From Apostichopus japonicus (taxonomy: Eukaryota > Echinodermata > Holothuroidea > Aspidochirotida > Stichopodidae): a stretch of DNA of 64,000 nucleotides. The notes under the pieces were generated by a model, which was given only the letters and a program-made list of their open reading frames with translations, searched no databases and was not told where the DNA came from. Shown piece by piece: positions 3,531 to 53,786 of the stretch. Within the stretch, counting starts at the first letter, position 1; each line of letters begins with the position of its first letter. Where the stretch lies: positions 22,964,577 to 23,028,576 of the forward strand of contig NC_092582.1 in the NCBI RefSeq assembly GCF_037975245.1. Direction: 5' to 3'. Position numbers and translations under genes: made by a program.

Positions 3531-3741
3531 TCAAGCTCATGATTATATTGTTTCCAGCATAAATTGGAGTTACTGTATACAAGACCAGTGTTTTATCTTA
3601 TTTAGCTATTCGCTGCTCTAAGCAAAGTAAAGATAACACTTTCACCTAAGCCTCTAAATATTTTGGGATTTGCTGGCCTGGGCAAAAATTACAGTTCCCC
3701 ACATTATAATTCTAACACTCTGAGGAAGAGTCTAGCCTGGC

Positions 3742-5274: not shown

Positions 5275-6982
5275 GTCATGTCACAAGGCACATATATTCT
5301 GCATCAATATACAATCCATTAGGCCCATATAGGGCCGCATTGGGCAACCTATTCTTTCTATCTGGTGGGACCTATGCAGAAGAAAATTTGTCTTGCATTG
5401 GCAGTTCTTTAATCTGTGGAAAGTACCTTTGCATTTGATATTGGTTTTTTTGTGGTACCAACTATGATTGATCATAGCCCATTTGGAGGCCCTTTTTTTT
5501 AGTGTGTCTGTTGGCCCCTTTGTAGCAGAAAATTTGTCTGGCATGATTATTTGCATAGTCTGTAAGATCAACCCGAACATTCCAAACCGGTTTTGAGTAG
5601 TACCTTGCATATTTAATCTGGGTCAATGCTACGATAATGGGCATTTGGGCCATATTTGGGGGCGTCTGGCGGGCCCTTAGCAGCAGAAAATTTGTCTGGC
5701 ATGGGCCATTCATTACTTTGTGGCATTCATGCATTAAGTTGACATTGGTTTCAAGTGGTACCTCGTTCGTTTGATCAAATTCATTTTAAGGGGCCCTTTC
5801 GGGGCGTCTGGCGGGCCCTTTGTAGCAGAAAATTTGTCTGGCATGATTATTTCCATAGTCTGTAAGGTCAACCCGAACATTCCAAACCGGTTTTGAGTGG
5901 TACCTTGCATATTTAATCTGGGTCAATGCTACGATAATGGGCATTTGGGCCATATTTGGGGGCGTCTGGCGGGCCCTTAGCAGCAGAAAATTTGTCTGAC
6001 ATGGGCCATTCATTACTTTGTGGCATTCATGCATTAAGTTGACATTGGTTTCAAGTGGTACCTCGTTCGTTTGATCAAATTCATTTTAGGGGCCCTTTTG
6101 GGGCGTCTGGCGGGCCCTTTGTAGCAGAAAATTTGTCTGGCATGATTATTTGCATAGTCTGTAAGGTCAACCCGAACATTCCAAACCGGTTTTGAGTGGT
6201 ACCTTGCATATTTAATCTGGGTCAATGCTACGATAATGGGCATTTGGGCCATATTTGGGGGCGTCTGGCGGGCCCTTAGCAGCAGAAAATTTGTCTGACA
6301 TGGGCCATTCATTACTTTGTGGCATTCATGCATTAAGTTGACATTGGTTTCAAGTGGTACCTCGTTCGTTTGATCAAATTCATTTTAAGGGGCCCTTTTG
6401 GGGCGTCTGGCGGGCCCTTTGTAGCAGAAAATTTGTCTGGCATGATTATTTCCATAGTCTGTAAGGTCAACCCGAACATTCCAAACCGGTTTTGAGTGGT
6501 ACCTTGCATATTTAATCTGGGTCAATGCTACGATAATGGGCATTTGGGCCATATTTGGGGGCGTCTGGCGGGCCCTTAGCAGCAGAAAATTTGTCTGGCA
6601 TGGGCCATTCATTACTTTGTGGCATTCATGCATTAAGTTGACATTGGTTTCAAGTGGTACCTCGTTCGTTTGATCAGATGCATTTTTAGGGGCCCTTTTG
6701 GGGCGTCTGGCGGGCCCTTTGCAGCAGAAAATTTGTCTGTCATGGGCCATTCAGTACTATGTGGCATTCATGCATTAAGTTGACATTGGTTTCAAGTGGT
6801 ACCTCGTTCGTTTGATCAGATGCATTTTTTGGCCCCCTTTAACCGGCCCCATGGGCCACATGCAGCAGAGCGACCACGGCAGACGTCCACTTTTGGATAT
6901 ACTGGGTTTTTCCACAAATGTTCCAATACTCAGATATTGGTACCTCGTTCGTTTGATCAAAGTGCTCTGGGCTGCCGGTCTA
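5275..6982 (-). repeat. Right arm of the foldback element
   Basis: Reverse complement of the left arm: 300-bp spacing from about 5758 to 6658, then two 141-142-bp spacings to the outer end. It has more full units than the left arm and an extra partial unit at about 6660-6800, so the arms are not identical in copy number. Units within one arm look at least as similar to each other as to units of the other arm. Confidence 0.75.
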
Positions 6983-15807: not shown

Positions 15808-17455
15808 TTAAGCGCATTTAATACGGTATTGCCTAATCGCCTAATTCAAGATCTATGTAGCTTTATTGAAGAACCATGGCGTATTCATTGGCTTTCAAAC
15901 TTTGTACAAGGCTGGTCTAGGCAAGTGAGATTACAGAAGGGATTTTCTTCTAAATCGGATATTAAAATTGGCGTTCCTCAAGGGGGTCCTCTATCGGCTC
16001 TACTTTTCACCATTTACACGGATGAGATACGCTCAGGTTCCAACTGCAATGTTATTAAGTATGCAGATGATACTGCTGCTTCCTGCAGAATCAGTAAAAG
16101 CACACACAGTAAAGATCAAGATGATTATCAATATACTTTATTTCTAGAATTGTTAGCTTGTGTGAGCAGAAAAATCTCATTTTGAATCCAAATAAATCAA
16201 AAGAAATCTTGTTTGAAAATATAAATGTTAAGCACAAAGGTTTAATGAATGTTAAAGAACAGAGAACTATAATTCAGGGCTCGTGCGTTGACACGTACCT
16301 CTTGCACTATGTATCTAGGAGTGTGCATTGACGATAAGTTAACTTTGACAAATCATATCTCGAAAATGTTAGCTAAAGTGTATTATATTGTTTCGACAAT
16401 ATAGCATTCAATGTCCGATACTTCTCCAGTGATACAATAGAAAGGGTGTTCGCGGCGTCTGTCTTGCCGATCCTAGTATATGCGGTTCCAGTATGGTATC
16501 ATTTTGTACACGTTAAAGATAAGAGAAGAATAAGAAGTTTCCTCAAATTGTGTTCAAAAATTTTCAGGCTTAATTATGAGAATCTTGTACATAGAGTCAA
16601 TGAATCTGCTAGGAATGAATTTATACGACTTGTCAAAAATTTTCAAACTACTAACGAACATCCTCTACACTCCCAGCTCAACTCTCTGTGCAATAAAACA
16701 AATTATAATTTGAAAAACCAAATATCACGCCATCTTTTAGAATTATACTCCTTAAGAACTCTATTATTTACAGAGCAGCTCTTTTTGTACAAAAGGGCTC
16801 CTTAGATCCTTTATTGCAGCTTTTTGATAATGTTTTAGAACTTTTACTCTTTAAGAACTCGTTTTATTTACAGAGCAGCCACTTTTTGTAAACTGGTAAA
16901 AACAGCTTCTTAGATCCTTTGTTGTAGCTTTTTATGTTTCATCAGTGGCGTAGGAAGGTACTTTTGAGTAGGGGGGAGGGGCTGAAGACTGATGGCCGGC
17001 CTGGGGGAGGGGTCTAAAGGGAGGGATGTCCCCCTCCCCTTTGGATTTTTTTTGCATTTCCAGGTGGCCTCAGATGCAATTTGGTGCAATATAGCACACT
17101 TCAACCCACCCACTCCATTTTGTATATAATTTTGCATTTTCACCTGGCCTTAGATGCAATTTGGTGCTCCAAATGAGATTTTTTTCTCATTTGCAAATGA
17201 AAAAGGGGTTTTCTGACTTGCGAAGCGGGGGGGGGGGGGCGGAATGATACTTCCGCCCCTCCATACTTTTCACTGGGGGGGCTGGCGCCCCCAGCCCCCC
17301 CGGTTCCTACGCCCTTGTGTTTCATTATTAACTTAATCTCATAAACTTTTATATGTCTTAACCTGTATTTTGATGTTCTGTATATATTGTTATATTTTTT
17401 ATCCTATTGATAAATTTCTCTGTAAATTTATACTGGAATAAAGGAATTAAAAAAA
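15808..17455 (+). mobile_element. Second non-LTR retrotransposon fragment (YADD type), with poly(A) tail
   Basis: Plus-strand RT remains begin inside motif A (AFNTVLPNRL), then GVPQGGPLSALLFTIYTDEI and the catalytic YADD box (within 15829-16185). After frame breaks near 16185 and 16330 the C-terminal part is open again at 16446-16805. The 3' UTR is interrupted by a hAT-type MITE at 16943-17317. The element ends in GGAATAAAGGAATT and a poly(A) run at about 17449-17461. The motif set suits the CR1/L2/Rex-like group and differs from the nearby FADD element. It also carries a tandem duplication of about 120 bp near 16745-16930. 5'-truncated and inactive. Confidence 0.8.
16943..17317 (+). mobile_element. 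hAT-type MITE, copy 1, nested in the LINE 3' UTR
   Basis: 375 bp starting CAGTGGCGTAGGAAGG and ending GGTTCCTACGCCCTTG, flanked by a perfect 8-bp duplication TGTTTCAT (16935-16942 and 17318-17325). Eight-bp duplications and CA(G/A) ends are the hAT signature. Same family as 31999-32365 and 40036-40410. No transposase. Confidence 0.93.
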
Positions 17456-24047: not shown

Positions 24048-26316
24048 ATGCCTCCTCTTAAAATTGAAGATGAAACTATGCCAGTCGTGGCTAGTACAGT
24101 AGAAGAAAAGAAAACAGCACAGAATGAACCGAAGAAGGAATACAAAATGGAGATAGTTTGGACAAATTTAATCATTCATACAGTTCTCCATGCTACTGCA
24201 CTCTATGGTCTGACGGTTGAAATATGGCGGTCCCAATGGTACACTCTACTTTTTGGTAAGTATAAATCTTTGGTATATATATATGTATATATACCACACA
24301 GGTCTACGATAGATCCATCTTAAATCGAAGCTAAAGAGAGAGAGAGGATGGAGAGAGAAAATAAATAAATAATTAAATATATAGTAACTACTTAATACAG
24401 ACTAGCCAAGTATAAAACATATATGAAGATGTAAAACTATGTGTACCATTTTAACCTTTTCTAAACCTTTTGGTCATTTGGAATTATTATTATTATTATT
24501 ATTCGTTTACAGCTTTCGTATTAGGTTGGTTTTCTAATCTCGGTATCACAGCTGGTGCACATCGTCTGTGGAGTCATAAAGCGTATTCTGCCAAGTTACC
24601 ACTCAGAATTTTCCTAGCTATCATTGCGTCACTATCCTGCCAGGTAAGTTCATGTTGCCAGGGGCAACGGGTATAGTCCTATATACGATCTCATACTTTG
24701 TTTACATTGTTTTAAGAACGTTCTTTCAAGGGATGTCGCCCGTTTTGCGGTGCACAACTATTAAAATTTTAAATTATTTTAAATATGAAAATATAAGTGA
24801 AGGCAGTTGCGTCAGTCTTTAAAGTCGCAAGTGTGTTGCCCCTTAAATTATGCTAGAAAGTTCAACTATGATCACTTATATATCGAAACAACGAGAAATA
24901 AATTGAACTGCCACGTTCGACGCGTCTACTCTGTGTTAAAAGTCGTATTCGTTCGTATATTTGCTCCTCAATGACTGAAAATGATGCGCGTAGGATCTGG
25001 AGCGCCCAAGACAAAAAAAAAAAATACTTTGAAAATCATTCAGCAAAAGTTTTGCCATTCTCAATGTTGAAGGCAAGAAAATGACCTAGAAAACTTGTTT
25101 TGTATTTGCCTAAATTTTAACCTGCTGAAAAATTGATATCAAAATTCTGAAAGAATCATACTGTAGATTGAAACACTCAAAGTTTATGAAACCAGATTTC
25201 TAGGAATATCAAATTTGACAATTTAATGCACGCTACCCCCCCCCCCCCCAATCCCCCTTATCATCCTTTCACAAACTTTTGGTTTTTTTGGTTTATATCG
25301 TATCGGTTTCAAAATATCCCCTTCTCTATACTTTGATATATGCAGAATTCCATCTACATCTGGTGTCGAGATCATCGAGTCCACCATAAGTTCACAGAGA
25401 CTGACGGCGACCCACATAACGCGAAGAGGGGGTTCTTTTTCTCTCACGTGGGCTGGTTGATAGTCAAGAAACACCCGGAAGTTATCGAGAAGGGCGCCAA
25501 ATTAGACTACAGTGATATGCTAAATGACCCGGTTGTGAAATTTCAACACAAGTAAGTATATATTTGTATATAGCTGAAATAGTTTCATTGTATGAGTTTA
25601 TTTTGAAATGGCAAGTCGAATTGGGGAGGGGAAGGGAAGGGGAAGGGGAGAAGTTGGATCGGAAGGTGTTTGGTTGGGAAGATTATCCTAGTAAGGAATG
25701 GGGAATCGACATCATCTAAACGGAGGAGAGGAGGTGGGGTGGCGGGGGGGGGGGGGTTAGTACCCACCACATGAGTGTCAGAGGTTTAGACCGAATTCAG
25801 CATTATATTTTTCGTAAAGCTCACTGTTCAATCATTAATTTATTTCTCGCCTATTTTTCACCCTCCAGATACTACTATCCAATGATACTTGTGATCAGTT
25901 TTATTCTCCCAACCTTGATCCCTTGGTATTTCTGGAACGAATCCATCTGGAACGCCTATATCGTATCCTGTATCACTCGATTGGTGCTGACGTTAAATAT
26001 CACGTGGTGTGTCAACAGTGTCGCCCATATATGGGGGTCACACCCTTACGACGAATCCATCGACCCGGCACAGAATGTCGCCGTGTCGTTTTTCGCGCTC
26101 GGAGAAGGTTGGCATAACTACCATCACGTGTTCCCATTCGATTATCGCGCCAGTGAGTTCCGTTGGTTGGTCAACCCGACTACACAGTTCATCGACTTGA
26201 TGTATCTTGTGGGACAAGCTTACAATCTGAAATATATGACTGATGAATCGATTAAATCTAAAGCCGCAAAAGCGGGCGATGGGTCAATACATTCGAGGTT
26301 CCATAAAACACACTAA
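24048..26316 (+). CDS. D2: acyl-CoA delta-9 desaturase (stearoyl-CoA desaturase family), four coding exons
   Basis: Exons 24048-24255, 24513-24643, 25346-25551 and 25869-26316 (introns 257, 702 and 317 bp; phases 1, 0, 2). The join encodes 330 aa. A 3' splice site at 24036 lies 11 nt before the ATG, so the frame continuing upstream is intron and the gene has a non-coding 5' exon elsewhere. Di-iron ligands: HRLWSH (86-91), HRVHH (123-127), N231/H235, HNYHH (264-268). Expected four-helix ER membrane protein that uses cytochrome b5 and O2 to desaturate C16-C18 acyl-CoA. Length is slightly below mammalian SCD (about 355-359) because the N-terminal region is short. The position matching mouse SCD1 Tyr104, at the tunnel end, is Gly74. 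A perfect DR1 motif lies about 300 bp after the stop. Diverges head to head from D1, with about 14 kb between. Confidence 0.94.
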
Positions 26317-31311: not shown

Positions 31312-31998
31312 GGCCGGGGGGCGAATTTTTTTCCCAAACAGGTTCTCAGTTACGGAGTTTTCAGCCAATCAGATTGCTCGTGACGTCAGCATCAAACGCT
31401 TGATAGTTCGAAAACATACACTGAGTTACACACTGACCCTTAATAAAGTCTTGTTACGCGGTTTCCCTGCAACGCCCTAACTTTTACTTTTAATGCTTGG
31501 ATAACATGTTGACCTTACTTATGATACATACGCTACATTCTATCGGTTTCGTGTTTACGCCATCCAAGATTCGTCAGCCGTTCTATTGAAATCGGAATTC
31601 GTTTCGTGGAATGGGTAGGCCTACACCAAAATCAACTTCACGACGCGAGTTCAGCCTTGAATGAATATACGCAAAACAGTTTAGTGTATAGTCAAGGCTT
31701 CATAATTGACGCACCCCCGTAATTGACGCACCTTCAATTATTACTAGCAACGATAGAGCAGGCCACCTAAACTTTTTGCAGTCAAGCAGAATTACATATT
31801 TCATGAGTTTGAATCCATTTCAGCTATTTGATGACCAAATTGTGGAATTTTTAAGCTTTTAACACCTTTCCCCCCGGTTTTGTACGTTTTTTGGGGGGCA
31901 TTTGGAAATCTTGCACCCTAAAAATAACCATCATTTCCTCAATATCATGGACAACACTACTCTCTGAGACCTGATCTGTGTAAGCTTAGAGGCTCAAA

Positions 31999-32365
31999 CA
32001 GTGGCGTAGGAAGGTACTTTTGAGTGGGGGGGCTGAAGACTGATGGCCAGCCTGGGGGAGGGGTCTAAGGGGAGGGGGTTCCCCCTCCCCTTTGGAATTT
32101 TTTGCATTTCCAGGTGGCCACAGATGCAATTTGGTGCAATATAGCACACTTCAACACCCACTCCATTTTGTAAACTTAATTTTGTATTTTCACCTGGCCT
32201 TAGATGCAATTTGGTGCTCCAAATGAGATTTTTTTTCTCATTTGGAAATGAAAAAGGGGTTTTCTGACTTGCGAACCGGGGGGGGCGGAATGATACTTCC
32301 GCCCCTCCACATTTTTCACTGGGGGGGCTGGCGCCCCCCCAGCCCCCCCGGTTCCTACGCCCTTG
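31999..32365 (+). mobile_element. hAT-type MITE, copy 2, nested in the 6.87-kb insertion
   Basis: 367 bp, same ends and inner sequence as copy 1, flanked by a perfect 8-bp duplication GGCTCAAA (31991-31998 and 32366-32373). It jumped in after the larger element formed. Confidence 0.93.
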
Positions 32366-32442
32366 GGCTCAAAGTATAGCAAACAGCATCTAAAGTCAAT
32401 GGATGTATACTAAAGCCTTCACTACAGCTAGCTTATCGACGA

Positions 32443-32853
32443 ATGTGTCAATTTAGGGGTATGAAAGAACTTGACACGGCAGACATTTTGTGGTCAAGTT
32501 CTGTTCAATTGTACGTTGCATATGCACAGAACAACAAATATATTGAGATCATTACATTTCTGAGGAACCACACATATGAAAAACACATACAGTTGAGTGA
32601 TTTTGATTTTTCCTTGATAGAAATCGTTGATCAAATCCTTAAGTGCGTCAATTATGAGCCCACCATGCTACAGTATGATGTATTTCCGTCACTGCACTGC
32701 ACACTTAAAAATAATTGCTCAACATGGGGTAAAATGGACCACCTCTATGGTGTAAAAAGGGAACATGGTCAACAGATGTGTAAACTTTACACATTAATGC
32801 TTTGGCAAAGTTTTACCTTACTGTGGGGTAATATTTTACCACACAATGTGTAA
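32443..32853 (+). CDS. Hypothetical ORF inside the insertion
   Basis: 136 codons. The first 85 or so have ordinary, mixed composition with hydrophobic spacing that could be helical (for example IEIITFLRNH). The end runs into the TTGTGTAA repeat zone and is probably not real protein. No family is recognised. It may be a single exon of an element gene or a chance frame; it has no clear splice partner on this strand. Confidence 0.2.
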   Translation: MCQFRGMKELDTADILWSSSVQLYVAYAQNNKYIEIITFLRNHTYEKHIQLSDFDFSLIEIVDQILKCVNYEPTMLQYDVFPSLHCTLKNNCSTWGKMDHLYGVKREHGQQMCKLYTLMLWQSFTLLWGNILPHNV

Positions 32854-33110
32854 ATTATTTTACCAACTGAGCATTGTGTAAAATTTGCACAACAATGACC
32901 ATGTTCCCTTTTGTACCCCATTTTGTGTAAATTTTACCCATGTCAAGCAGGGCACTGGTTTTACCCCACAGTTGTGTAGTTTTTTTGCAAAACAGTTGTG
33001 TAATATTAGCACACCTTTTGGGGTTCCTTTTTTTTTTACAAAACAGTTGTGTAATATAAGCACACCTTTTGGGGTTACTTTTTACACACACACTTGTGTA
33101 AATAATATAA
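32740..33110. repeat. Clustered TTGTGTAA / TTTTACAC repeats, left zone
   Basis: At least ten copies in both orientations of a core like TTGTGTAAAATTT. They include an inverted pair GGGAACATGGTCA (32759) and TGACCATGTTCCC (32897), and a near-direct repeat with AGCACACCTTTTGGGGTT at about 33009 and 33059. A sister zone is at 37590-37860 on the other side of the SAM gene. Such subterminal clusters often bind transposases. Confidence 0.7.
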
Positions 33111-34436
33111 TTTTATATATACTGTAAATGTTTCAAAATCGTGTCAAAAACATATACCTTTGAACAATTTGATATAACTTCCATACTTGCATATGCTTGC
33201 GTGTTAAGTAAGGTTGCAATAATTTTAAGACTTTAGTATATATGAACAAACATGGGAACAAACATTGGCTCTATGGCAAGGAAGCCTATGATCTCAGTGC
33301 AAGAAAATAAAACACTTGTAACATCAAAATGAACTGATAAAATTTATTAAGACTTCTGTAAATAACTTTCAGCAGGAAAAATGAATTTTCTCTCTTGCAT
33401 AAAACAGAACATGAAAATCATAGAAGTGAATACCATTACAGTATTAGCAGCAATGCAGCCACATATATAGGTTAATAATATTGTTCATAGTAGGCTAAAA
33501 TATTTTTGTAGGGGAGCCATTGCATAATGAAATGTACTTTTCTTATTCTTAATTGTTTTTCTATTCAGGTTGGTGTGTGTGTGTGGGGGGGGGGGGGGGC
33601 TTTTTTTTTTACACCACTTGCTATGGGCTTGCATAATATCAACCCAAGTTTAGGTGAAAGACGAGTTAAGCTACATATCAAACAGGTGAAACATACACAT
33701 GACTTTTAAATCCTTGTGATATTTTATTCCTGGGGTATTTCCTGGATATCAATCTCACATAGCAATTATATAGCCAACAAAATCTACATTTTTTAAATTT
33801 GTTTGTGCCTAATGTTGACCTCATCAACGAGTTATTCAGAAAGTTTTCCAACATTCGGGCAATATTATTTAGAATTAATGTAAAGTGTATAATTACTATG
33901 TGTTGGATAACCATGCTAGATGCTTAAAACCCTATGAAACTCAACTTTACTAAGCTGTCATATTTCTCAAAATTCTAACATATTTACATCGACAAATGTT
34001 ACAATGTATCATATAGTTGAGGTACTAAAACAGAACTTTGAAGAAACTTAACCATCCCTTATATGCTTTCACAGTTGTTGAATAAACCATACTGGAGACC
34101 TCAAGTCCTTTAAAATCACCTATAAGCTGTGATATTTCACAAAAATCTAACATATAATAGAAAGAACTCAACACAAGTTTGAAAACACCAGAAAAATATC
34201 TATATGGAATGAAAGTAAAATCATCACTTATCTGTTATCACAGTTGTTCAATAAAACATGCTGGAGAACTAAAGCCCTGTAATATTACCTATACGCAGTG
34301 ATCACGTATAATAGAAAGAACACAACACAACTTTGAAAACAACAGAAAATATCTATATAGGAAACAGACTCAAATCATCACTTATATGTTAAACTGGGTA
34401 AAGTTTTACATACCCTTGTAACCTGAAGTAAATAGC

Positions 34437-34552
34437 AGCTAGAGGTCTAACATCTGTTTAGCTTTACATAGCCCAGGCCAATGGATACAAAGAGCGGGCC
34501 CACTTCCAGTGCCTTCTCCTCAATGATGACGAAGAGCTTCTGGAGCGGATTC
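34437..34552 (-). pseudogene. Decayed second copy of the SAM-gene terminal exon
   Basis: Minus strand: KLFVIIEEKALEVGPLF-type text repeats QLFVIIERKAMMVDTLI of the exon at 34687-34920, followed by the same Ile/Leu-x-Asp-Leu block, but with an in-frame stop where the functional exon continues into YPPQ. This suggests a local duplication of the terminal exon after which this copy decayed. Confidence 0.6.
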
Positions 34553-34686
34553 CTTGTTAACAATGACGAAAATAATGCCATGTTGCTGACAGTGGTCTTA
34601 CATAATTGATTTGATATGATAGTATGCCCTGAATGCCCTGATAGACCCTGGTTCATTCGGTACTTTAATAGCATAAATGAGAGTGT

Positions 34687-37554
34687 CTAAAGCAGTTCAT
34701 ACCCCCATACTGTAGCCTGAGGTGGATAGCAGAGGTCTAAAATCTGGTAAGCCTTGTAGCAGAGGTCAATTGCTGCAATAAGTGTGTCTACCATCATTGC
34801 CTTTCGCTCAATGATGACGAAGAGCTGCTGTGGCTGGCAGTAGTTGCCTCCCAAGATCAAAACGAATGGCTGTGTACGTCCATCAAATTGAGTCAAGTAT
34901 TGCGCTAAGTTTACACCTTCCTGAAAAGACAAGTTATTATATAAAATTTATATATATTGACCACAATCTGGGAAATATGTATAGGTAACCTTCCAGTTGT
35001 GTAGTTTTAAGCACATCTGACCAATGCTAGTAAAAAAGAAACAGGTTTCTTCAGGGGGAACTTCTACAACACACAGGTCATACTTGTCTCGACACCAAAA
35101 GGATTTGAAATATTATTTAATATCTTCTTTTCCAGTCCTATGAAGATTCCTGGTATAATAAATTATCAAAGTCTAGAGGTACCATGGAAATGATATGTTA
35201 GTTCTGGCCAAATTAAGGGCAACTTATTTTGGTAGTATATTGCAGTAACATAGCCAGGTTCTGACAATGGGCGAGTTATGTGGGGTATAGAGTCAAAGGG
35301 GCACTGAAACTATCAGGAAATTTCCCTTAAAAGAGGGTATCCCCATGCAACCCTCACCCATGGTTACTACTAGCTCATTTTTGTGATGGTATTTCCTTTT
35401 GAGGAAGAGGCATATTCCGCACCCACCCCATTTGACAACCATGCAGGTGCTCCAGAGTTAACAGTCTATTTAATTTTATTCAGTGGAACTGATTACTATG
35501 AGCATAAATGCAGTATTTCAGGGCATTTATACTGTAGTACAGTAATACCTTTGATGATTGCCTGTGGCATCAGAACCATTACTTGAGTAATATTGCAACA
35601 TTTACATATTGACCTCAATCTGTGACAACATCAATGCTATGTACACCAAAAACAATTGATTACAAGTTACTACAGGCCATCTACTAGCATGGTAATGATA
35701 TATCATGCCATCTTCTGAAATGAGGCCCACCACTCAGAATTATGTCACAATAACATTTACAAACATGATAACCAAAAAGATCATACAAAGTTTGGATATA
35801 ATGTGACCTTTGGGTGCAGAATCATTGTTATTAAAATATTTTGACCTCTGACCCAATACGTTAACTGATATTTACGATGAGATCGATGAACACCATACAC
35901 AATAATATCTTTAAGTAACAAAGGGCGATCACCCATTGTTGAGTTATCACGTAACAAAGCCAAGCATCACACACTCACTCATGCATACACAGTACACGTA
36001 CATATGCACATGGACCTGAACACATATACTATTCCGTGTGCAGCAAGGAATCGAACCTGTGTTGAACAATGAAATTATTACCTTCTGAAAGAGAGTTGCA
36101 CCTTAGGTTGTAGTGATGTTTAAACTTTAAACGAAGACCGAGTTTGGGGATTATCTGTGTTATGCTCTCATCATCCAGTAACTCAAATACTTCATCATCA
36201 ATCCTGTGAGCTGTGGAAATTAGAGGGAAAATATTTTCCATATAACACTGTTACAAAGCTTAATAACAGTAATGACAAAGGACATGTTGCATATTAGGAA
36301 ATTGCTTCCGTAAAATGAACATTTATGGATATTGCAATCATCACATATTATTCTAGACATAAAAAACAACCAGAGAATGTAAACATTTTATTGTGAAATA
36401 AAAAAAATGCAGAGATATTAATGTGCTTACTGCTTAGCCCACTCATTAACATAACTTATTTTCTTCAGGTAAAAGTCAACTGCGTTCAAAGGTTAAACAC
36501 TAACATCATTATTTTATTAAGCCACCATGGACCAAGGTCTTAGTTGGAATGTAGGCTTCTTGTAGGCCAACTTCATGTGACACACCCACATATCAAATAT
36601 CAGATCTGTCCAAGCTTCCCTTCTTGAAATATCAGGTTTAGTAGTTTTCACAATTTAACCTCTGATGACCCCAAATGACCATTGACCTCCCCAAACATCA
36701 GTGCGCTTCTTGTCCCTAATGTGGTCACGTACACACCAAACATGAGAAGTCCAAATTCCCTTCTTGAAATACTGTGTTTACAAGCTTGGCAGCACAAACA
36801 CACACATACGCCATTATGATTGCAAAGCATACTATTTTCATCACAACTAACAAAGCTTGTACACCATTTGGCCCTAACATATGAGAGCCAGGGTCTTGGT
36901 TGACTACTGCAGGATCATAGTGAGGCTTATTTTAATGGATATGCTAGTCATAATGGGTCATTGCCTGGCCTTAAAACTAATATTCAACTGGTAATGTTAG
37001 CCTAGGCTGTATCGCTTGCCTATTTGTAGTGTTGGTTAAGGAGGCCTATCAGTATATAAATGTAGAATTGGCTTGGGCCTTAAACATAAGCCAAAGCTAG
37101 GATGGTTCAACGTTGGCCAACGTTATACGTAACCTAAGTTACTCTCATACGTGAGTAATATCTTTAGTACGAACAAGATGGTTATGTGCACTACCTAGTC
37201 TCTATGGGCATGAAAAGAGAATCTAGAGAGGAACGAAAGGCTATATATGTATGCTTGGCGCTTACTATTAGCAATAGCTTAGCCTAACGTTCGACCTTGC
37301 ACCAACATTTAGTCGTAACGTTAAACAAGAGTGAGGCCTAGGCGACGAGTATATGCCGTTTAAAACAGTTTTCGTTCAGTATTCAACGGTGAAATTGTAG
37401 TTCAAGACTTATTGAAATATTATTCTTTCCGCATAAAAGGTTAGTACTGATGCCCGAAATACACCATCCTACCTTCTAATTGTGGCTTCAGTTCCGCTAG
37501 GCCGATGTTTTCCAGAAATTGTGAAACGACCATCGAACTTTTAGTGGCTTCCAT
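34687..37554 (-). CDS. SAM-domain protein gene carried inside the 6.87-kb insertion (partial model)
   Basis: Supported exons, minus strand: 37473-37554 (ATG; MEATKSSMVVSQFLENIGLA), 36082-36210 (IDDEVFELLDDESITQIIP, then GLRLKF) and 34687-34920 (terminal; QLFVIIERKAM, ILDLCYPPQ, stop). Exons 1 and 2 join in phase 1 to rebuild a SAM fold (WL-like helix, IDDE loop, LGLRLKF end). SAM domains mediate protein-protein or RNA contacts. The terminal exon resembles the C-terminal domain of a multicopy, poorly characterised animal family that pairs an N-terminal SAM domain with a PFVLILG...QLFVII...CYKAYQILDLCYPPQ region. One or more middle exons (34921-36081) are not resolved; 35781-35963 is a candidate region. 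The exon 2 donor could instead be at 36102. This may be a cargo gene or part of the mobile unit. Confidence 0.6.
36545..36795 (-). repeat. Reverse-oriented copy of the 145-bp repeat family
   Basis: Contains CAAATGACCATTGACCTCC and CTTCTTGAAATA twice, spaced about as in the repeat at 1-345 but on the other strand. Its nuclear-receptor-like site is AGGTCA-A-TGGTCA, one base off a perfect DR1. Confidence 0.65.
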
Positions 37555-37589
37555 GTTGTCGTTCTGCAAGCAGCGCCCGGTATGAAAGC

Positions 37590-37860
37590 GTGTTTACACA
37601 TCAAAGTTGTAACATAAATGTATTTTACCCAGTGCAGTGCAACAAATTACACCGGTATTTTATTTTACCGGTAGAAAGGGGCAAACTGGTCCTTTTTTTT
37701 TACACAATACGCATTTGTAAATCATTACACCTGTGTCTGTGTCGCCTGATATACATGTTTTACTCAGCGTTGTGTAAAAATTGCACAACTCTTTACCCCT
37801 CACTTTTATACCCCGTTAACTTTTACACATTGTTTTTACTGTGTGTGTACACAGTTATAA
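37590..37860. repeat. Clustered TTTACACA / TTGTGTAA repeats, right zone
   Basis: Several copies of TTTTTACACAA, TTGTGTAAAAATTGCACAA and TTTACACATTG just upstream of the SAM-gene ATG. With the left zone (32740-33110) it brackets the gene. Confidence 0.65.
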
Positions 37861-38194
37861 TACATATAGGCCTATATCGCATGTGTTATGTACCCCTGTA
37901 CGAAACTTTCACTGTGCGATGTTATCGATAAATGCCTTCACAGAAATCTTCGATCAAAGTAGATCATACAATACTAGTGTGCTCATTATGTCTAAACCAA
38001 TTCCAAACACATCTACATATATTTACGAAAAGCTGCGGGTAATTTTGAACGGGTATATCTTCGTTGCAACAAATGGATGCAGACATTTTGATAACCTCGA
38101 AGTGAAGGGTTTTATTGTTATGACGTAACTTTTCCGACCAATCATGAGCGACTATTTATACACAATTGAGAACCTGTTTGGGAAAAAAATTCGC

Positions 38195-40035
38195 GGCCGG
38201 GGGGGGGGGGGGAAGGGGTGTTTGTATTTTCGTTATTGGTTCGTGTGTATTTGGTTTCTTCACGAGAAACAGGCCAAAACATCGACGATTTGAAAAATGA
38301 ATTTGAAATAATTAAAATAAAGAAATAAAAACATACTTGTTTAATGCAATACACTGGAATGTGTACCCGATATAAACGATATTGTATAAAGGAAGTGTAA
38401 AATATGGATATGTTGTATAAAGTTACCAGAATATAAGACCAAAACAAAAGCATTTCTCGAAGAATAATGAAATCTTAAAAGTAATTCGAATGTTCATGGA
38501 TTAACGTGCTAAAATATAATATCGTTAATCCTTGTGCAAGAGCTTTCGGGTCAAAGTCACAATCTATATATATAAAATAGGGTTTCATAAATAGTAACAG
38601 TATAGTATGATAAGGGTAAAGAAGGACTTTGCGGTGAAGATTTTACCAGCCAAAACAAATGTAGCATTCTCGAAGAACAATTGAAATCTTAAAAGTTTTT
38701 CACGTGCTAAAAATAACATCGATTATCCTTGTGCAACACCCTTTTTTTTTCAAAGTTGCAATCTATATTTGTATTCCAAATATAGGGTTCTATAAATAGT
38801 AACAGTGCTCTATAGTATGATAAGGGTAAAGAAGGACTTTGCGGTGAAGATTTTACCGCACCCCCCCCCCCCCATTGTTTTTCTTTTAATCTTATACCAG
38901 GGTAAAGTGTTTCATTTGCTAGAGGACGAAAATAGATGTAAAATAGATAGAAAGATAAAGTAAATTAGTCTTTCATACATAAATGATAATGGATTCCAGG
39001 ATAACAATGATAAAGATATATATTTGCCTATCTTACAATGGTGATATTGACCATACATATGCATATGCCATTTATAGATTGCTAAACAATCGTAAGTTGT
39101 AATGATATTTTTTGCTGACATGCACGAACGCGATGATATGCTTCTGTGCAGACAGTGCATGTTGGACTTTGTACATTAAATGGACAGATCGGATAAGTAG
39201 CATCTCCCTGCATGGTTACATGTAAGCGTTTATGTGTGCGTTTATATATCATGCATGGATCAGATGTTACCTATGCGACAGCGTTTTCAATGTTTTCTTG
39301 AACATGCGCGGAGAGCCTTCCGGTGTGCTTTTTAAACATATCGAATATGAATAAACATAATTAACTATGCACAAACCGATGAATCACAGTCATTAATGTC
39401 TACCTTATTGCTACAGCTATGAATATGCATAATTTCGTATGCCTAAACTAACGAATCACAGTCAGGAATGTCTACCGTAAGCTACAGTTATGAATAGCCT
39501 ATGCATAATAACGTATGCCCAAACTAACGAATCAAAGTCAGGAATGTCTACCGTAAGCTACAACTATGAATATGCATAATTTCGTTTGCCTAAACTAACG
39601 AATCACAGTCAGGAATGTCTACCGTATGCTACAGCTATGAATATGCATAAATCCGTATGCCCAAACTAACGAATCACAGTCAGGAATGTCTACCGTATGC
39701 TACAGCTCTCGGTAGGTATGTATGGATGTATGTATTTTAGATCCTCCTGCAAGCAAAAACTCGCGAAGAAGCCTCATTGGCTTATTGTATTGTGTACAAC
39801 TTGACTCACTCCCTCGTCACCAAGCTACCTCCTAAATATTTTAATATCATAATTTTCGGAGCCATGGAAAGAGCGCACTGACGTTTCTTAGTCCAATTCC
39901 GCAGATCAAAATTCCGTAATCTTGACTGAATAGCAAAAATATAACAACATACTGTACAGTTTATAGATTAAAAGATATTTGGCTATTCCCAAAAACTATA
40001 CACTTTATACAAGATGTTCATTTAATTGATTTCGT
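38195..40035 (+). other. D3 5' intron, part 2
   Basis: Collinear with 48790-50070. A segment of about 180 bp is tandemly duplicated here (38500-38635 and 38690-38860, both ending GGACTTTGCGGTGAAGATTTTACC) but is single in unit B (49080-49232). No ORF with recognisable content. Confidence 0.6.
39345..39715 (+). repeat. Minisatellite of about 72 bp, five units, upstream of D3
   Basis: Units contain GAATCACAGTCAGGAATGTC, TACCGTATGCTACAGCTATG and AATATGCATAATTTCGTATG. Unit B has only two to three units (49745-49935), so the array has changed length since the duplication. Confidence 0.85.
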
Positions 40036-40410
40036 CAAGGGCGTAGGAACCGGGGGGCTGGGGCGCCAGCCCCCCCAGTGAAAAATATGGAGGGGCGGAA
40101 GTATCATTCCGCCCCCCCCCCCCCCGCTTCGCAAGTCAGAAAACCCCTTTTTCATTTCCAAATGAGAAAAAAAATTCATTTGGGTCACCAAATTGCATCT
40201 AAGGCCATGTGAAAATGCAAAAGTTTTTACAAAATGGAGTGGGTGTTGAAGTGTGCTACATTGCACCACTGTGAATTGCATCTGAGGCCACCTGGAAATG
40301 CCAAAAAATTCCAAAGGGGAGGGGGACACCCCTCCCCTTAGACCCCTCCCCCAGGCCGGCCATCAGTCTTCAGCCCCCCCCCCACTCAAAAGTACCTTCC
40401 TACGCCACTG
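40036..40410 (-). mobile_element. hAT-type MITE, copy 3, in the D3 5' intron
   Basis: 375 bp in reverse orientation, starting CAAGGGCGTAGGAACC and ending CCTTCCTACGCCACTG, flanked by a perfect 8-bp duplication GATTTCGT (40028-40035 and 40411-40418). Absent from the matching place in unit B. The 3' splice site of the D3 5' intron is 160 bp downstream. Confidence 0.93.
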
Positions 40411-40572: not shown

Positions 40573-43299
40573 ATGGCACCAAACACAGGATCATCTCAAG
40601 TTGCCAATGAACACGTTGCTCAAAAGATCGAAGACAAAGACAAAGCTGCAACGAGAACAGAATATACAAGAGAATTTGTTTGGACTAACGTTATAGTCCA
40701 TACAGTACTACACATTGCGTGTATCTACAGTATTCTGTTCGTGTCGTGGAAATGTCAGTGGTATACGCTCCTTTTTGGTAAGTCGGACGTCAATAATCTG
40801 CAAATACAATTGTCAATATTTTGTTATTAAATTCGGACATTTTGTCTCTGGTTGCCGCTTAAATAGTACATTGTCAATCAAGAAAAATCGATGGAAACTT
40901 CGGGCACCATCATTTTTTCAAAATGCTGTTCTAGTTTATAATTTTGATCCTTTCGATGCCCTTTGAACCAAACGTTTGTTTACGACTAAATAAAGCATAA
41001 TTTGTTTAGCTCAATCCTCCATGTGACGTTAATCATTCGGCTGTTACAGACACACGCCTAAGCTTGATAAATTTATCTGTGTTTTAATTAATAATTTCAT
41101 ATCTAAGTTGTTATAAAACAGGTTACCAGGATACATGGTTTTTCAGCTACTTATGATTCAAATTTACGGCAAATATTCTCTAACTCATGTCATCATCTTA
41201 AAGCTCGTGACGTCATAAAGCTTGTATGAGATAAAATATTAAAATGAAGTTTATGATCGTACGAGTAATTTATCTCTGATTGATTTCCTTTTTTTGGGGT
41301 TTTTTTTTGTTTACAGCTTTCGTATTAGGTTGGCTTTCTAATCTCGGTATCACAGCTGGTGCTCATCGTCTGTGGAGTCATAAATCTTATTCGGCCAAGT
41401 TACCACTCAGAATATTCCTAGCTATTATTGCTTGCCTGTCCTGTCAGGTACAACACATTACAACATCACATCGATAATATTATCAAGCTTCTTTACTACA
41501 AAGTAATGTGGGGACGTTCTAATAACGACGACGATGACGACAATGATGACACGAACGATGACGTTGACTTTGACTACGACGATGATATTGATGACGACAA
41601 TGTCGATGATGACGACGACGATGACGTTGACGATTACGACGAAGATTTCGATGACGATGACGACGATAGCGACGATGATTGAGATGACGACGATGACGAC
41701 GACGAAGATGACGTTGACGATGACGACGATGATTTAGATGACGATGACGACGATGATTTAGATGACGATGACGAAGATGACGACGACGACAATGATTATG
41801 ACAAAATACGGCGACAGTGACGACGATGAAGATGATTTGATAGCTTATGATAGCTATTGTAGCTTTTGTGACTTTTGTGGTGGCTTTAAGCAAAGCCGAT
41901 CACACAACGTTATGATATATCCAGGGTGTCCCATTACCAACTTTGAAAGGGTGTTTTTACTTTGTAATGATTTGAATGTCATATATGACCACAAAGAGAC
42001 ATTTTTCAAACTGGTAAATTGGTTTAAAATATAGGTTAATGGTTAATATAGAACTACTTCCCATTAAGATTGATATCATCGATACAAAGTTGGAACAACT
42101 CGTGGATGAAGCATTTAACCAACCCTATTGACAAATGAATGCCCAAGAAGATAATTGTCAAACAAGTAGTAAACTTTATTTTATTAATTGTTGTGTTAGG
42201 AGAAAACGTGTAGTGAAAATATCACATATTGCCTCCACAGAACTCCATCTACATCTGGTGTCGGGATCATCGCGTCCACCACAAGTTTACAGAGACTGAC
42301 GGCGACCCACATAATGCTAAGAGGGGTTTCTTTTTCTCTCACATGGGTTGGCTGTGGGTAAAGAAACATCCGGACGTTATCAAAAACGGAGCCAAGCTTG
42401 ACTTCAGTGATTTAATGAATGACCCAGTTGTCTACTATCAACATAAGTAAGTAGATGATCATTAGATTTCATTAAAATCAGCCAATTGGGACAAATTTGC
42501 TAAACCTAATGCCTGTCTATACTGTCCTCCAATATCATGCTTCAAAACATTCGTACTGACAGTACAAACAGTACGAAACCCTAGAAACATGATATTCATA
42601 CTGCTCAAACTGTCACTACGAGTGCTTTGAAGTGGGACATGAAAGTGCAGTATAGCAAAAACGGGTCACAATTGCATTCTTTAAAATGTTTAACGATATG
42701 AATATTCATAAAACACCGTATCATTACAGCCTATGTTTAATTGTAAGGGTTTATGGCCGGAAACGTATCACGTCATAAACTTTTGTTTTGTGGTTTTCTT
42801 TCGTTTGATATATGTTTTCTGTATCTGTTTTCTCTCTGGTTTTTCCCTTAGATTCTATTATCCGCTCATTTTGATGATAAGCTTTGTCCTGCCGACAGTG
42901 GTTCCATACTTCTTATGGAACGAATCTCTGTGGAATGCTTACTTCGTTGCCGCGGTGATGAGGTTGGTCTTAACACTGAACATCACGTGGTGTGTCAACA
43001 GCGCCGCTCATATGTGGGGATACCATCCGTATGACGAAACTATCGAACCAGCCGAAAACATCGCAGTTTCCTTCTTCGCTCTCGGAGAAGGATGGCATAA
43101 TTATCATCACGTCTTCCCATTCGATTACCGTGCAGCTGAACTACCCTGGAAAGTAAATCCGACGACACAATTTATCGATCTCATGCATCTGATTGGTCAA
43201 GCCTACGGTTTGAAATATATGAGCAAAGAAGCGATTCGCTCACGAGCCACTAAATATGGAGACGGTACCATTTATCCAAGGGGTGACAAAACAAACTGA
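40573..43299 (+). CDS. D3: acyl-CoA delta-9 desaturase (stearoyl-CoA desaturase family), four coding exons
   Basis: Exons 40573-40777, 41317-41447, 42241-42446 and 42852-43299 (introns 539, 793 and 405 bp; phases 1, 0, 2), 329 aa. The ATG directly follows CTGTTTGGCAG, a 3' splice site, so MAPNTGSSQ is the true N-terminus and the longer upstream frame is intronic. Di-iron ligands: HRLWSH (85-90), HRVHH (122-126), N230/H234, HNYHH (263-267). The kink Thr is kept (T226). The tunnel-end position matching mouse Tyr104 is Gly73. Predicted ER membrane enzyme making delta-9 monounsaturated acyl-CoA. D4 is its tandem twin: only 4 of 69 residues differ in exon 3 and 7 of 148 in exon 4. Its promoter is probably at 29.7 kb, with the 6.87-kb insertion inside the intervening intron. 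AATAAA at about 43910 is a possible polyadenylation signal. Confidence 0.95.
41520..41815 (+). repeat. (GAY)n trinucleotide array in D3 intron 2
   Basis: Almost unbroken GAC/GAT triplets with some GTT and GAA. The matching intron of D4 has an even longer version (51880-52320). The poly-Asp and Thr/Met frames across it are artefacts, since the region lies between well-defined splice sites. Confidence 0.9.
42482..42672 (+). mobile_element. CCAGTTGGG MITE, copy b, in D3 intron 3
   Basis: Begins GCCAATTGGGACAAATTTG and runs through CATGATATTCATACTGCTC and GTGCTTTGAAGTGGGACATG to about 42672. Present at the matching site in D4 (52999-53185), so it was there before the D3/D4 duplication. Confidence 0.7.
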
Positions 43300-43639: not shown

Positions 43640-43790
43640 CATACAATCAGCGTTCATAGCCTAGTGGTTAGGGTGTCCGTATATATAGCCGGATGCCCGG
43701 GTTCGAATCCCGGTGGAGACTGGAAGTTTCTTCACTGTTCTGGATTTTCCAACTCACGTACTACAATTTCAATTATATATGTATACATAT
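43640..43790 (+). mobile_element. tRNA-derived SINE
   Basis: Pol III boxes are plain: A-box-like TAGCCTAGTGGTTAGGG and B box GGTTCGAATCCC inside CCCGGGTTCGAATCCCGG. The acceptor stem does not pair (GTTCATA against TGGAGAC), so it is not a working tRNA. A tail CTGGAAGTTTCTTCACTGTT, then TGGATTTTCCAACTCA, is shared with 43340-43420 and 50690-50765. Confidence 0.8.
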
Positions 43791-47021: not shown

Positions 47022-50516
<3,495 letters not shown>

Positions 50517-50946: not shown

Positions 50947-53786
50947 ATGGCACCAAACACAGGATCATCTCAAGTTGCCAATGGACACGTTGAAAAGATC
51001 CAAGGCAAAGACAAAACTACAACGAGAACAGAAAATACGATAGAAATTGTTTGGTTTAACGTTATAGTCCATACGGTACTACACATTATGTGTATCTATG
51101 GCATTCTGTCCGTATCGTGGAATTGTCAGTGGTATACGCTCCTATTTGGTAAGTCAGACGTCAATAATCTGCCATTACAGTTGCCAATATTTTGTTATTT
51201 AATCCAAACATTTTGTCCCTGGTTGCGGCCGGCTTAAATAAATTGTCAATCAAGAAAAGTCATCATTTTCAAAAACATTTTCTGTATAGTTTATAATTTG
51301 TACCTTTCGATGCCATATGAACCAAACGTTTGTTTACGACTAAATAAAGCATAATATGTTTAGCTCAATCCTCCATGTGACGTAAATCATTCAGCTGTTT
51401 ACAGATACATGCATGAAAGTTACCCAAGCTTGCTAAATGTATCTGTGTTTTCATTAATAATTTGTTATAAAACATGTTACCAGAATACATGGTTTACAGC
51501 TAGTTATGTTGCAAACACAGCCAAAAATTTTCTAACATATGTCATCATCTTAAAGCTCGTGACTTATATCAGACAAAATATTAAAATTAATATTAATATT
51601 AAAATTAAGTTATGATCGTACGAGTAATTTATCCTTAATTGGTTTCCTTTTTTTTTTACAGCTTTCGCATTAGGTTGGCTTTCCAATCTCGGTATCACAG
51701 CTGGAGCTCATCGTCTGTGGAGTCATAAGTCTTATTCGGCCAAGTTACCACTCAGAATATTTCTAGCTATGATTTCTTGCCTGTCCTGTCAGGTACAACA
51801 CAACGATAGTATTATCAAGCTATATACTTAACCATAAAGTAAAAGGGACATTTGTAATAACAATATCGACGACGATGATGACACGAACGTAGGCGTTGAC
51901 TACGACGATGATAATGATGACGACGATGTCGATGATGACGACGACGACGATGATGATGACATTGACGATGACGATCACGACGATAGCGACGATGTCGATG
52001 ACAACGACGATGACGTTGACGATGATAACGATATCGACGATGTTGATGATGATGACGACGACCGCAATGATGACGTTGACGATGACGACCTGACGACGAT
52101 AGCGACGATGATTGAGATGACGACGATGACGAAGAAGACGATGACGAAGATGACGTTGACGATCACGACGTTGTCGATGATGACGACGACGACGACGATG
52201 ACGTTGACGATGACAATGACGATGACAATGGCGATAGCGACGATGATTGAGATGACGACGATGATTCAGATGACGATGACGATGATTTAAATGACGATGA
52301 CGACGACGATGATTATGACAAAATACGGTGACGGTGACGACAATGAAGATGATGTGATAGCTTATGATAGCTATGTTAACTTATGTGACTTTTTGTGGCG
52401 GCTTGCTTTAAGCAAAGCCGATCACACAACGTTGTGATATATCCAGGGTGTCCCATTACCAACTTTGAAAGGGGGTTTTTACTTTGTAATGATTTGAATG
52501 TCATATATGACCACAAAGAGACATTTTTCAAACTGGTAAATTGGTTTAAAATATAGGTTAATATAGAACTACTTCCCATTAAGATTGATTTCATCCATAA
52601 AAAGTTAGCACAACTCGTGGATGGAGCATTAAACCAACCCTATAGTGACAAAAGAATACTCAAAAGATAATTGTAGTTTTTTACTTTATCAATAGTTGTG
52701 CTGGAAGAAAACCCGAGTGAAAATATCACATATCATACCCTCGCTTTACCTTGCCTCCACAGAACTCCATCTACATCTGGTGTCGGGATCATCGCGTCCA
52801 CCATAAGTTTACAGAGACTGACGGCGACCCACATAATGCTAAGAGGGGTTTTTTTTTCTCTCACGTGGGTTGGCTGTTGGTAAAGAAACATTCGGACGTT
52901 ATCAATAACGGAGCCAAGCTTGACTTCAGTGATTTAATGAATGACCCAGTTGTCTACTATCAACATAAGTAAGTAGATGATCACTAGATTTCTTTGAAAT
53001 CAGCCAACTCATGCTAATACCAGTCTATACTGTCCTTAAATATTATGCTTCAAAGCATTCGTTCTGACAGTACAAACAGTTCGAAAACCTATTCATAGAA
53101 ACATGATATTCATACTGCTCAAACTTTCACTACTAGTGCTTTGAAGTGGGACATGAAAGTGCAGAATAATTTTTCTTTCCTCGCAGTTGCGTTCTTTAAA
53201 ATGTTTAACGATATGAATATTCATTAAGCACCGTATCGTTACAGCCTATGTTTAATTGTAAGAGTTTATGGCCGGAAACGCATTACGTCATAAAGTTTTG
53301 CTTTTATGGTATTCATTTTCTCTGTTTTTTCCCCTTAGATTCTATTACCCGCTCATTTTGATGATAAGCTTCGTCCTGCCGACAGTGGTTCCATATTTCT
53401 TATGGAACGAATCCCTGTGGAATGCTTACTTTGTTGCCGCGGTGATGCGATTGGTCTTAACTCTGAACATCGGGTGGTGTGTCAACAGCGTCGCTCATAT
53501 GTGGGGTAACCATCCGTATGACGAAACTATCGAACCAGCCGAAAACATCGCGGTTTCCTTCTTCGCTCTCGGAGAAGGATGGCACAATTATCATCACGCC
53601 TTCCCATTCGACTACCGTGCATCTGAACTTCCCTGGAAATTAAATCCGACGACACAATTTATCGATCTCATGCATCTGATTGGTCAAGCCTACGGTTTGA
53701 AATATATGAGCAAAGAAGCGATTCGCTCACGAGCCACGAAATATGGAGACGGTTCCATTTATCCAAGGGGTGACAAAACAAACTGA
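50947..53786 (+). CDS. D4: acyl-CoA delta-9 desaturase (stearoyl-CoA desaturase family), four coding exons
   Basis: Exons 50947-51148, 51662-51792, 52763-52968 and 53339-53786 (introns 513, 970 and 370 bp; phases 1, 0, 2), 328 aa. The ATG follows CTGTTTGACAG, so the start is set by the splice site as in D3. Di-iron ligands: HRLWSH (84-89), HRVHH (121-125), N229/H233, HNYHH (262-266). Same predicted ER reaction as D3. Differences from D3 include two in well-kept spots: the Thr four residues before N229 is Gly225, and the Val after the third histidine box is Ala267. Frame, splice sites and metal ligands are all intact, so it should be functional, but the Gly225 change could alter tunnel shape. 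The 3' UTR region contains two extra decayed copies of the last codons. Confidence 0.95.
51880..52320 (+). repeat. (GAY)n trinucleotide array in D4 intron 2
   Basis: About 440 bp of GAC/GAT triplets with GTT, longer than the same array in D3 intron 2. It accounts for most of the greater length of D4 intron 2 (970 against 793 bp). Confidence 0.9.
52999..53185 (+). mobile_element. CCAGTTGGG MITE, copy c, in D4 intron 3
   Basis: Counterpart of 42482-42672, with CATGATATTCATACTGCTC and GTGCTTTGAAGTGGGACATG, but its left end is shorter (part of the GGGACAATTT end is missing). Confidence 0.65.

Follow-up and report, generated by a model that had tools for sequence, protein, structure and literature searches.

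The DNA considered in this study (the window) is a stretch of 64,000 nucleotides from the holothurian Apostichopus japonicus (contig NC_092582.1), and the features of interest, listed in Table 1, lie between two of its desaturase genes: 3' of the last coding exon of one (whose frame ends at 26316) and 5' of the first coding exon found for the next (at 40615). The original prediction, made from the window alone, described one young mobile unit of 6.87 kb within a desaturase 5' intron. No transcript shows an intron at that place, and the supposed unit is actually a 1.36-kb element (the outer element) interrupted by two further insertions, a small MITE and a transposon that carries a gene with a SAM domain (the SAM element). 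The empty site claimed in the tandem paralogue does exist: the joined flanks of the insertion align with 48556-49140 at 82% identity over 608 columns, and the paralogue lacks the insertion there.

Table 1. Features of the insertion between the desaturase genes, in window coordinates.
Feature	Position	Strand	Basis
Left 9-bp target duplication GGCCGGGGG, outer element	31312..31320	.	repeated outside both ends
Outer element, 6874 bp here, about 1.36 kb uninterrupted	31321..38194	+	comparison with other copies
Left 28-bp inverted end, outer element	31321..31348	+	multicopy in host genome
8-bp target duplication GGCTCAAA, left of nested MITE	31991..31998	.	flanks MITE
Nested hAT-type MITE, end CAGTGGCG...	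31999..32365	+	two more window copies
8-bp target duplication GGCTCAAA, right of nested MITE	32366..32373	.	flanks MITE
2-bp target duplication TG (CA on gene strand), SAM element	32698..32699	.	filled/empty comparison
SAM element, 5144-bp inner transposon, termini 5'-CACAGTAAAAAC ... TTTTTAAGTGTG-3'	32700..37843	- (gene strand)	exact ends common to L044, L045, L046
3' subterminal palindrome, about 73% self-complementary, TTGTGTAA-type motifs	32716..32949	.	z -6.2
SAM gene exon 3, partial duplicate, degenerate	34468..34542	-	
SAM gene exon 3, conserved C-terminal part, no Pfam family	34687..34920	-	
SAM gene exon 2, second SAM-domain half; last bases are the internal-deletion junction	36082..36210	-	
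SAM gene exon 1, first SAM-domain half; start codon at 37554	37473..37554	-	
5' subterminal zone, TTGTGTAA-type motifs, upstream of SAM gene	37590..37843	.	motif scan
Second copy of 2-bp target duplication TG	37844..37845	.	filled/empty comparison
Right 28-bp inverted end, outer element	38167..38194	-	pairs with left end
Right 9-bp target duplication, outer element	38195..38203	.	GGCCGGGGG
Empty site matching insertion, tandem paralogue	48784..48805	+	flank alignment

The boundaries of the outer element are as first described. Its inverted ends agree at 28 of 28 positions, and GGCCGGGGG stands directly outside both; the only other occurrence of GGCCGGGGG in the window is on the opposite strand, at 45447. 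Sought elsewhere in the host genome, the ends proved multicopy rather than single (448 first-look candidates, with a match in all 40 that were scored). The right end follows within 10 kb in 18 of 20 fetched copies, and perfect 9-bp duplications flank 13 of these 18. The targets are CCGG-like and the duplications 9 bp. Uninterrupted copies continue straight across both insertion points of the window copy, which measures 6874 bp because of the two nested insertions. Its core is 95-98% identical to that of other copies, so the description as young stands insofar as the insertion is recent and postdates the duplication of the paralogues, with no date attached to it.

The outer element is thus a common, multicopy, non-autonomous mobile element. 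Its 9-bp duplication and 28-bp inverted ends fall within the ranges published for MULEs (target duplications of 8-11 bp and inverted ends of 14-500 bp; PMC6446971). I call it Mutator-like by the length of its duplication, as a putative member of that superfamily; the copies read are all non-autonomous.

How the SAM gene came to lie within it is the central question. The original prediction offered two possibilities, the first being a Pack-MULE-like (or Pack-TIR) event, in which a SAM gene of the host was acquired by the element with the 28-bp TIRs and has been carried along by it since. Pack-TIRs are known from animals (370 in 100 genomes; PMC8277862), and one intron of the SAM gene contains an old repeat (36552-36787), as might be seen in a host gene. 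Against this, the comparison of filled and empty copies places exact SAM-element ends, with their 2-bp duplication, within the outer element, where a captured gene should be free of another element's ends. SAM sequence, far from always accompanying the inverted ends, is present in 0 of the 20 fetched outer copies that share the left end (10 kb of each was read), and the SAM element is found at 14 other short-form 5' ends. I therefore give capture by the outer element almost no credence. Since well-preserved copies of the inner family carry the gene, it moves with its own element. The second possibility offered, an undescribed type of element whose own gene is the SAM gene, comes close to right for the inner element and fails for the unit with the 28-bp TIRs. 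Unless filled and empty outer copies are compared, a nested insertion resembles a Pack-MULE; a gene between a pair of TIRs is insufficient for a call of capture.

The locus is very probably explained by three stacked insertions, with the SAM gene belonging to a DNA-transposon family of its own. The non-autonomous 1.36-kb outer element inserted first, at a GGCCGGGGG site lying 5' of a desaturase gene, and the hAT-type MITE and the 5144-bp SAM element inserted into it later, in either order.

All four full copies of the SAM element (that of the window and those at L044, L045 and L046) start and stop at identical bases, with termini 5'-CACA..TGTG-3' and 2-bp YR duplications in each case (CA, TA, TG and TA, respectively). 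Motifs of the TTGTGTAA type are concentrated on both sides of the SAM gene, in keeping with the bracketing zones of the original prediction, and 13 of the window's 20 instances of TGTGTAA/TTACACA fall within 712 bp. The zones had been considered as independent MITEs, an idea dropped on finding that they lie inside the SAM-element ends in the full copies read. They are probably binding sites for a transposase or for the SAM protein. The SAM element thus belongs to a distinct DNA-transposon family, with CACA..TGTG ends, TTGTGTAA-rich subterminal regions and 2-bp YR duplications. Counting against the explanation as a whole, shared terminal bases are few: CACA, followed by A-rich sequence that is merely similar.

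Repeated motifs near the ends are typical of CMCT transposons (EnSpm/CACTA, Mirage, Chapaev, ESTA and relatives), and the SAM element shares them, as it shares the occurrence of internally deleted derivatives. According to PMC12730594, CMCT termini are mostly 5'-CA..TG-3' and the duplications 2-5 bp; both hold in all four full copies, and the termini and duplication of the SAM element fit CACTA-like (CMCT) transposons. An animal element of the CACTA superfamily also makes 2-bp duplications but has CCC ends (PMC4298943). An inner element of the Tc1/mariner type, with a TA target, is very improbable: TA is duplicated in two of the four full copies and also abuts the right end of L047 and the left end of L014, but CA is duplicated in the window copy and TG in L045.

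The SAM element differs from the CMCT clade in that its gene encodes a SAM-domain protein and no CMCT transposase has been found so far. The window copy contains no stop-free frame longer than 157 aa (not all frames were scanned against Pfam), none of the 58 Transposase_21 (PF02992) loci in the host genome falls inside the three long copies described below, and Plavaka (PF18759) gave no match in the host genome at E values up to 10. Nor was a transposase seen in the only long-copy sequence read, the 3' 6 kb of L047 (a copy of about 15.1 kb). The enzyme that moves the element may be a transposase of the CACTA-like (CMCT) kind, either acting in trans or encoded by the long copies outside those 6 kb.

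A search of the host genome for the 5' end of the SAM element gave 26 places, all of which were scored, 18 of them at an identity of at least 90%. Each of these 18 is followed by the SAM C-terminal exon in sense, at 2.8-3.7 kb in 15 cases and at 12.8 kb in three. Diverged 5' ends (73-86%) account for the seven of the 26 without a C-terminal exon among the scored matches. Pairing of 5' with 3' ends yielded 14 copies of 5086-6486 bp and three of 15119-15137 bp; besides the window copy, there are 14 further short-form copies, a pair of which lie next to each other on C11. The three long copies are at C17:5182509-5197645, C17:27597951-27613071 and C16:25568916-25584034. An insert of 5.7 kb at L039 was considered as another copy and rejected, having no SAM match.

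Exon spacing is near-constant across the copies. The three long copies (about 15.1 kb) hold further SAM-gene exons, among them a middle exon that is 100% identical in all three and was not detected in the neighbourhood of short copies. In the long copies the match to SAM exon 2 extends as far as residue 43 of 46 and breaks off at the short-form junction. The short form arose from the long one by internal deletion: the loss of about 9 kb turned a form of about 15.1 kb into one of 5.1 kb. For the C-terminal exon, the host genome gave 533 first-look candidates, with a match in 150 of the 150 scored.

The minus-strand SAM-domain gene was correctly predicted: its 146-aa product scores 21.8 bits with SAM_2, against a curated cut-off of 20.5 (SAM_1 stays under its own cut-off). 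If splicing uses the acceptor before 34920, exons 1 and 2 do not continue in frame into exon 3; the reading frame is preserved with the AG that lies 4 nt further on. As the nearest acceptor shifts the frame of exon 3 in the short form, short copies may yield only an 82-aa SAM product, and the copy at L045 has a stop in exon 1. The C-terminal and middle exons matched no Pfam family above cut-off (APP1_cat reached an E value of 0.036, at 14.4 bits against 27.1) and no credible relative in the PDB (best E 0.048); an AlphaFold2 model of the 77-residue exon alone had a mean pLDDT of 56 and was set aside. The gene product presumably resembles the SAMD3-like proteins of animals in its layout, combining a SAM domain with a middle region and a conserved C-terminal region; it differs from them in being encoded inside a mobile element.

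In the overall explanation preferred here, the stacked insertions, the SAM protein would act as an accessory factor of the element, perhaps multimerising, DNA- or chromatin-binding, or anti-silencing. Beside this, three more specific readings can be set out. The SAM gene may be a former host gene captured by the CACTA-like element and now carried as cargo, playing no role in transposition, a reading whose chances I would put somewhat short of even. Accessory genes on transposons have precedents, such as the TET/JBP genes on several lineages of DNA transposons (PMC12730594), and the distinct changes in exons 2 and 3 among nine copies (9 nonsynonymous, 4 synonymous) do not clearly point to selection on the protein. 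The fungal TET/JBP elements of that source likewise have an accessory gene on DNA-transposon families, but here the host is an animal and the gene encodes a SAM domain. Cargo fits poorly with the retention of the last exon at all 18 well-preserved 5' ends, with the related sets of SAM genes, likewise multicopy and near-constant in exon spacing (examples being the copies at C10:13581305 and C15:11350722, at C19:28432115 and C2:9302713, and at C7:2765483 and C16:39986010), and with the lower variability of exons than introns (8 of 341 against 81 of 1311 sites; Fisher p 0.004).

More tentatively, the SAM protein might be an essential second protein of an element whose full form encodes a CACTA-type transposase. 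Near one related two-copy SAM set is an 877-aa frame with a Transposase_21-like match; on two contigs this match begins upstream of the SAM C-terminal exon and in its orientation, at distances of 6136 and 6160 bp, where about 0.09 such neighbours would be expected by chance. The match, at 27.5 bits, is nevertheless under the curated 28.6, the two related copies amount to one event, no other same-strand pair occurs within 30 kb among the 150 SAM and 58 transposase matches scored, and none of the 58 lies in the three long copies.

Finally, and in my judgment rather unlikely, the SAM gene could define a lineage of animal DNA transposons that has not been described, with many multicopy families in this genome each bearing a version of its own, and the protein would take a direct part in mobility (for example as a binder of the subterminal palindromes). 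On that view, animal genes built in the same way would descend from, or share ancestry with, a gene of transposons. A SAM-domain gene kept in the well-preserved copies of a DNA-transposon family, with relatives that are multicopy and near-constant in exon spacing, would represent a new kind of animal-transposon accessory protein and provide a concrete origin for the copy-rich SAM-domain genes of animal genomes. Among the open-access titles and abstracts listed for SAM domains together with DNA transposons, none is about such an element.

Outside the host genome, the TIR pattern of the outer element was found at 0 places in viral contigs, and its 19-mer in two bacterial contigs, against about 1.9 expected. 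The SAM C-terminal exon had no match in viral contigs or phages, and the N-terminal part matched viral contigs just once, over 19 residues of a different kind of frame.

The remaining insertion is unexceptional. An 8-bp duplication and short inverted ends of the CAG type are the marks of hAT elements, and the nested MITE bears both, as do two further copies in the window (16943-17317 and 40036-40410), each with its own 8-bp duplication. The duplications are perfect in all three, and the ends of the window copies are CAGTGGCG and CAAGGGCG.

The original prediction took this region for one young 6.87-kb mobile unit carrying a SAM-domain gene in a desaturase 5' intron, and its observations on the outer boundaries stand. 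The two ends of the outer element, 31321-31348 and 38167-38194, are reverse complements at 28 of 28 bases. GGCCGGGGG abuts both externally as a 9-bp duplication and has one other occurrence in the window, on the opposite strand at 45447. The flanks, once joined, align at 82% over 608 columns with 48556-49140, the empty site in the tandem paralogue, where the insertion is absent. As for placement, desaturase genes stand on either side of the element: coding sequence of one runs out at 26316, and the first coding exon found of the next starts at 40615, so that a position in a 5' intron is putative.

In the host genome (671.6 Mb in 35 contigs, the window being C22:22964577-23028576), the outer element is both small and common. 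Its first 100 bases gave 448 first-look candidates and its last 180 bases 472; all 40 scored in each case matched, at 95-100% and 97-100%, respectively. A sample of 20 copies was fetched at 10 kb each, three of them neighbours on contig C2, and the right end was located in 18: sixteen measure 1324-1373 bp, one 1560 bp and one 7038 bp. A perfect 9-bp duplication flanks 13 of these 18. Their targets are GC-rich, with a GC content of 0.86 where the loci have 0.38. Positions 3 and 4 are each C in 17 of the 18, and position 6 is G in 17. SAM sequence was found in none of the 20 copies (tblastn, E up to 1e-3, 10 kb each). Mutator-like elements (PMC6446971) have duplications of 8-11 bp and inverted ends of 14-500 bp; the outer element's lengths are compatible with these, no more.

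Four outer copies (L022, L026, L030 and L037) retain a 200-aa open frame, in which a Pfam search found no match; in the window it begins at 32380 and is severed by the SAM element. Another copy, L039, is broken by a 5.7-kb insert (~490-6170 from the left end of the outer element) with ends CTCTTAAATTT.. and ..AAATTTAAGAG and with ACTGAAATTTCAGT-type palindromes close to both; tblastn found no SAM match in the insert.

Alignment of the window's outer element to uninterrupted copies reveals two additional blocks, and with both removed the core is 95-98% identical to other copies. Block 1 is a hAT-type MITE; two more copies occur within the window, both with their own perfect 8-bp duplication. 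Block 2, which I will call the SAM element, contains the SAM gene entirely. Its site reads CACTGCACTGTGTACACAG in most uninterrupted copies and CACTGCACTG, insert, TGTGTACACAG in the window, so TG has been duplicated.

Features located in the window
Feature	Position	Remarks
Block 1	31999-32365	starts CAGTGGCG; GGCTCAAA on both flanks
Block 2 (SAM element)	32700-37843	5144 bp; by alignment to uninterrupted outer copies
Exons encoding the SAM domain	37554-37473, 36210-36082	SAM_2, 21.8 bits (cut-off 20.5); splice sites present
Third conserved SAM-gene exon	34920-34687	
Old repeat in SAM-element intron	36552-36787	~72% identity to window start
Old repeat at window start	1-337	repeated ~146 bp apart
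Acyl-CoA desaturase gene	7457-10295	strand opposite to the other three of the cluster
Acyl-CoA desaturase gene	24048-26316	
Acyl-CoA desaturase genes	40615-43299, 51025-53786	close tandem paralogues
tRNA-like match	43650-43721	35.9 bits; gene or SINE; sole Rfam match above gathering score in window

Block 2 is present elsewhere in the genome with identical ends. The four full copies read (window, 5144 bp; L044, 5125 bp; L045, 5134 bp; L046, 5237 bp) are 96-99% identical to one another, and all four have the termini 5'-CACAGTAAAAAC...TTTTTAAGTGTG-3'. Their target duplications are CA, TA, TG and TA, respectively; two further loci, L047 and L014, each show a single end, both abutting TA. The TTGTGTAA-rich zones that the original prediction noted on both sides of the gene are the SAM element's two subterminal regions, the 3' one a palindrome that folds much better than shuffles (z -6.2, 0/100).

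The 5' terminal 150 bases occur at 26 places in the genome (26 of 26 candidates scored), and the 3' terminal 150 bases have 26 candidates. A SAM C-terminal exon from the 150 scored lies at 19 of the 26 5' ends and at none of the other 7. Eighteen 5' ends match at at least 90%, and all 18 are followed by the C-terminal exon in sense. The two tables, paired by hand, give 14 short elements (5086-6486 bp) and three long ones (15119, 15121 and 15137 bp), while another 5' end, on C11, adjoins a second SAM-element copy. The other eight 5' ends are weaker matches (73-86%) and all fall on contig C16, between 7.1 and 33.3 Mb, whereas the 18 fresher ones are spread across many contigs. Three of the eight have a paired 3' end at 789, 2456 and 3184 bp; these are old derivatives of reduced length, and a search for SAM exon 2 found none in them. 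Another pairs at 14.1 kb, its C-terminal exon being degenerate (67%); for one the nearest 3' end is 35 kb off, and three have no partner.

The spliced SAM-domain gene is real, having a SAM_2 score above cut-off, splice sites and a conserved exon 3. Locus L047, the 3' portion of one long element, has exons absent from the short form, two with normal splice sites; one of these exons is 100% identical across the three long copies, 3003-3007 bp ahead of the C-terminal exon. SAM exon 2 lies 2304-2306 bp from the 5' end of the long copies, matching only to residue 43 of 46. Because the match stops at the short-form junction, where the joined sequence terminates a later exon of the long copy with TTTCAGAAG, the short form arose by one internal deletion of ~9 kb and then spread. 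Splicing to the acceptor before 34920 would give the short form an 82-aa SAM product; use of the AG 4 nt further on would yield 146 aa, C-terminal exon included. In L045, exon 1 contains a stop.

In eight copies, exons 2 and 3 changed at 8 of 341 sites, as compared to 81 of 1311 in introns (Fisher p 0.004; the count omits L047, splice-adjacent bases and the final 15 bases of exon 3). The exon changes fall 4, 1 and 3 at codon positions 1, 2 and 3. Over nine copies there are 9 distinct nonsynonymous and 4 synonymous changes, and selection on the protein is therefore not demonstrated within the short form.

The termini and 2-bp duplication of the SAM element resemble those of the CMCT group, marked by mostly 5'-CA..TG-3' termini and 2-5-bp duplications (PMC12730594). 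An animal CACTA-superfamily element (PMC4298943) shares the 2-bp duplications but has CCC ends. The SAM element probably works like a CMCT-type transposon; it is not assigned to CMCT, because the defining enzyme was sought in an incomplete search and not found. The window copy has no stop-free frame above 157 aa, none of 58 genome loci matching Transposase_21 at E up to 10 lies in a long copy (long-form reading covered the 3' 6 kb of one copy), and Plavaka has zero matches in the host genome. At two loci, on C7 and C16, a Transposase_21 match begins 6136 and 6160 bp, respectively, upstream of the C-terminal exon of a related SAM gene, in the same orientation; the frames are of 877 aa and score 27.5 bits, under the curated 28.6. 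Chance alone would place about 0.09 neighbours of this kind (150 and 58 places). The pair is one event, copied, and is a hint, not proof, of a transposase link. A Transposase_21-like family with ~872-aa frames has many copies of near-equal score, none with a scored SAM exon within 30 kb. A SAM-domain gene as a DNA-transposon accessory was not found in the titles and abstracts of open-access literature; accessory genes as such are known on DNA transposons, TET/JBP in fungi being one case (PMC12730594).

The SAM-gene family extends well beyond the element. The C-terminal exon has 533 candidates, and all 150 scored match: 20 (at 19 places) at at least 88%, the SAM element proper, one at 67%, and the others at ~35-50%, many in equal-score sets on different contigs. 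The middle exon has 37 matches, one a second piece of the same exon and excluded. When compared with 74 of the 150 C-terminal matches, 29 of the 36 used have a C-terminal exon after them in the same orientation and 7 have no partner. The distance is 3003-3119 bp in 28 cases and 3822 bp in one, and this near-constant spacing indicates that introns were copied along with exons, as DNA-level copying predicts. Eight paired copies of one related set, on C10, C12, C15, C16, C17 and C21, have their two exons 3080-3081 bp apart, which points to a recent burst of that set.
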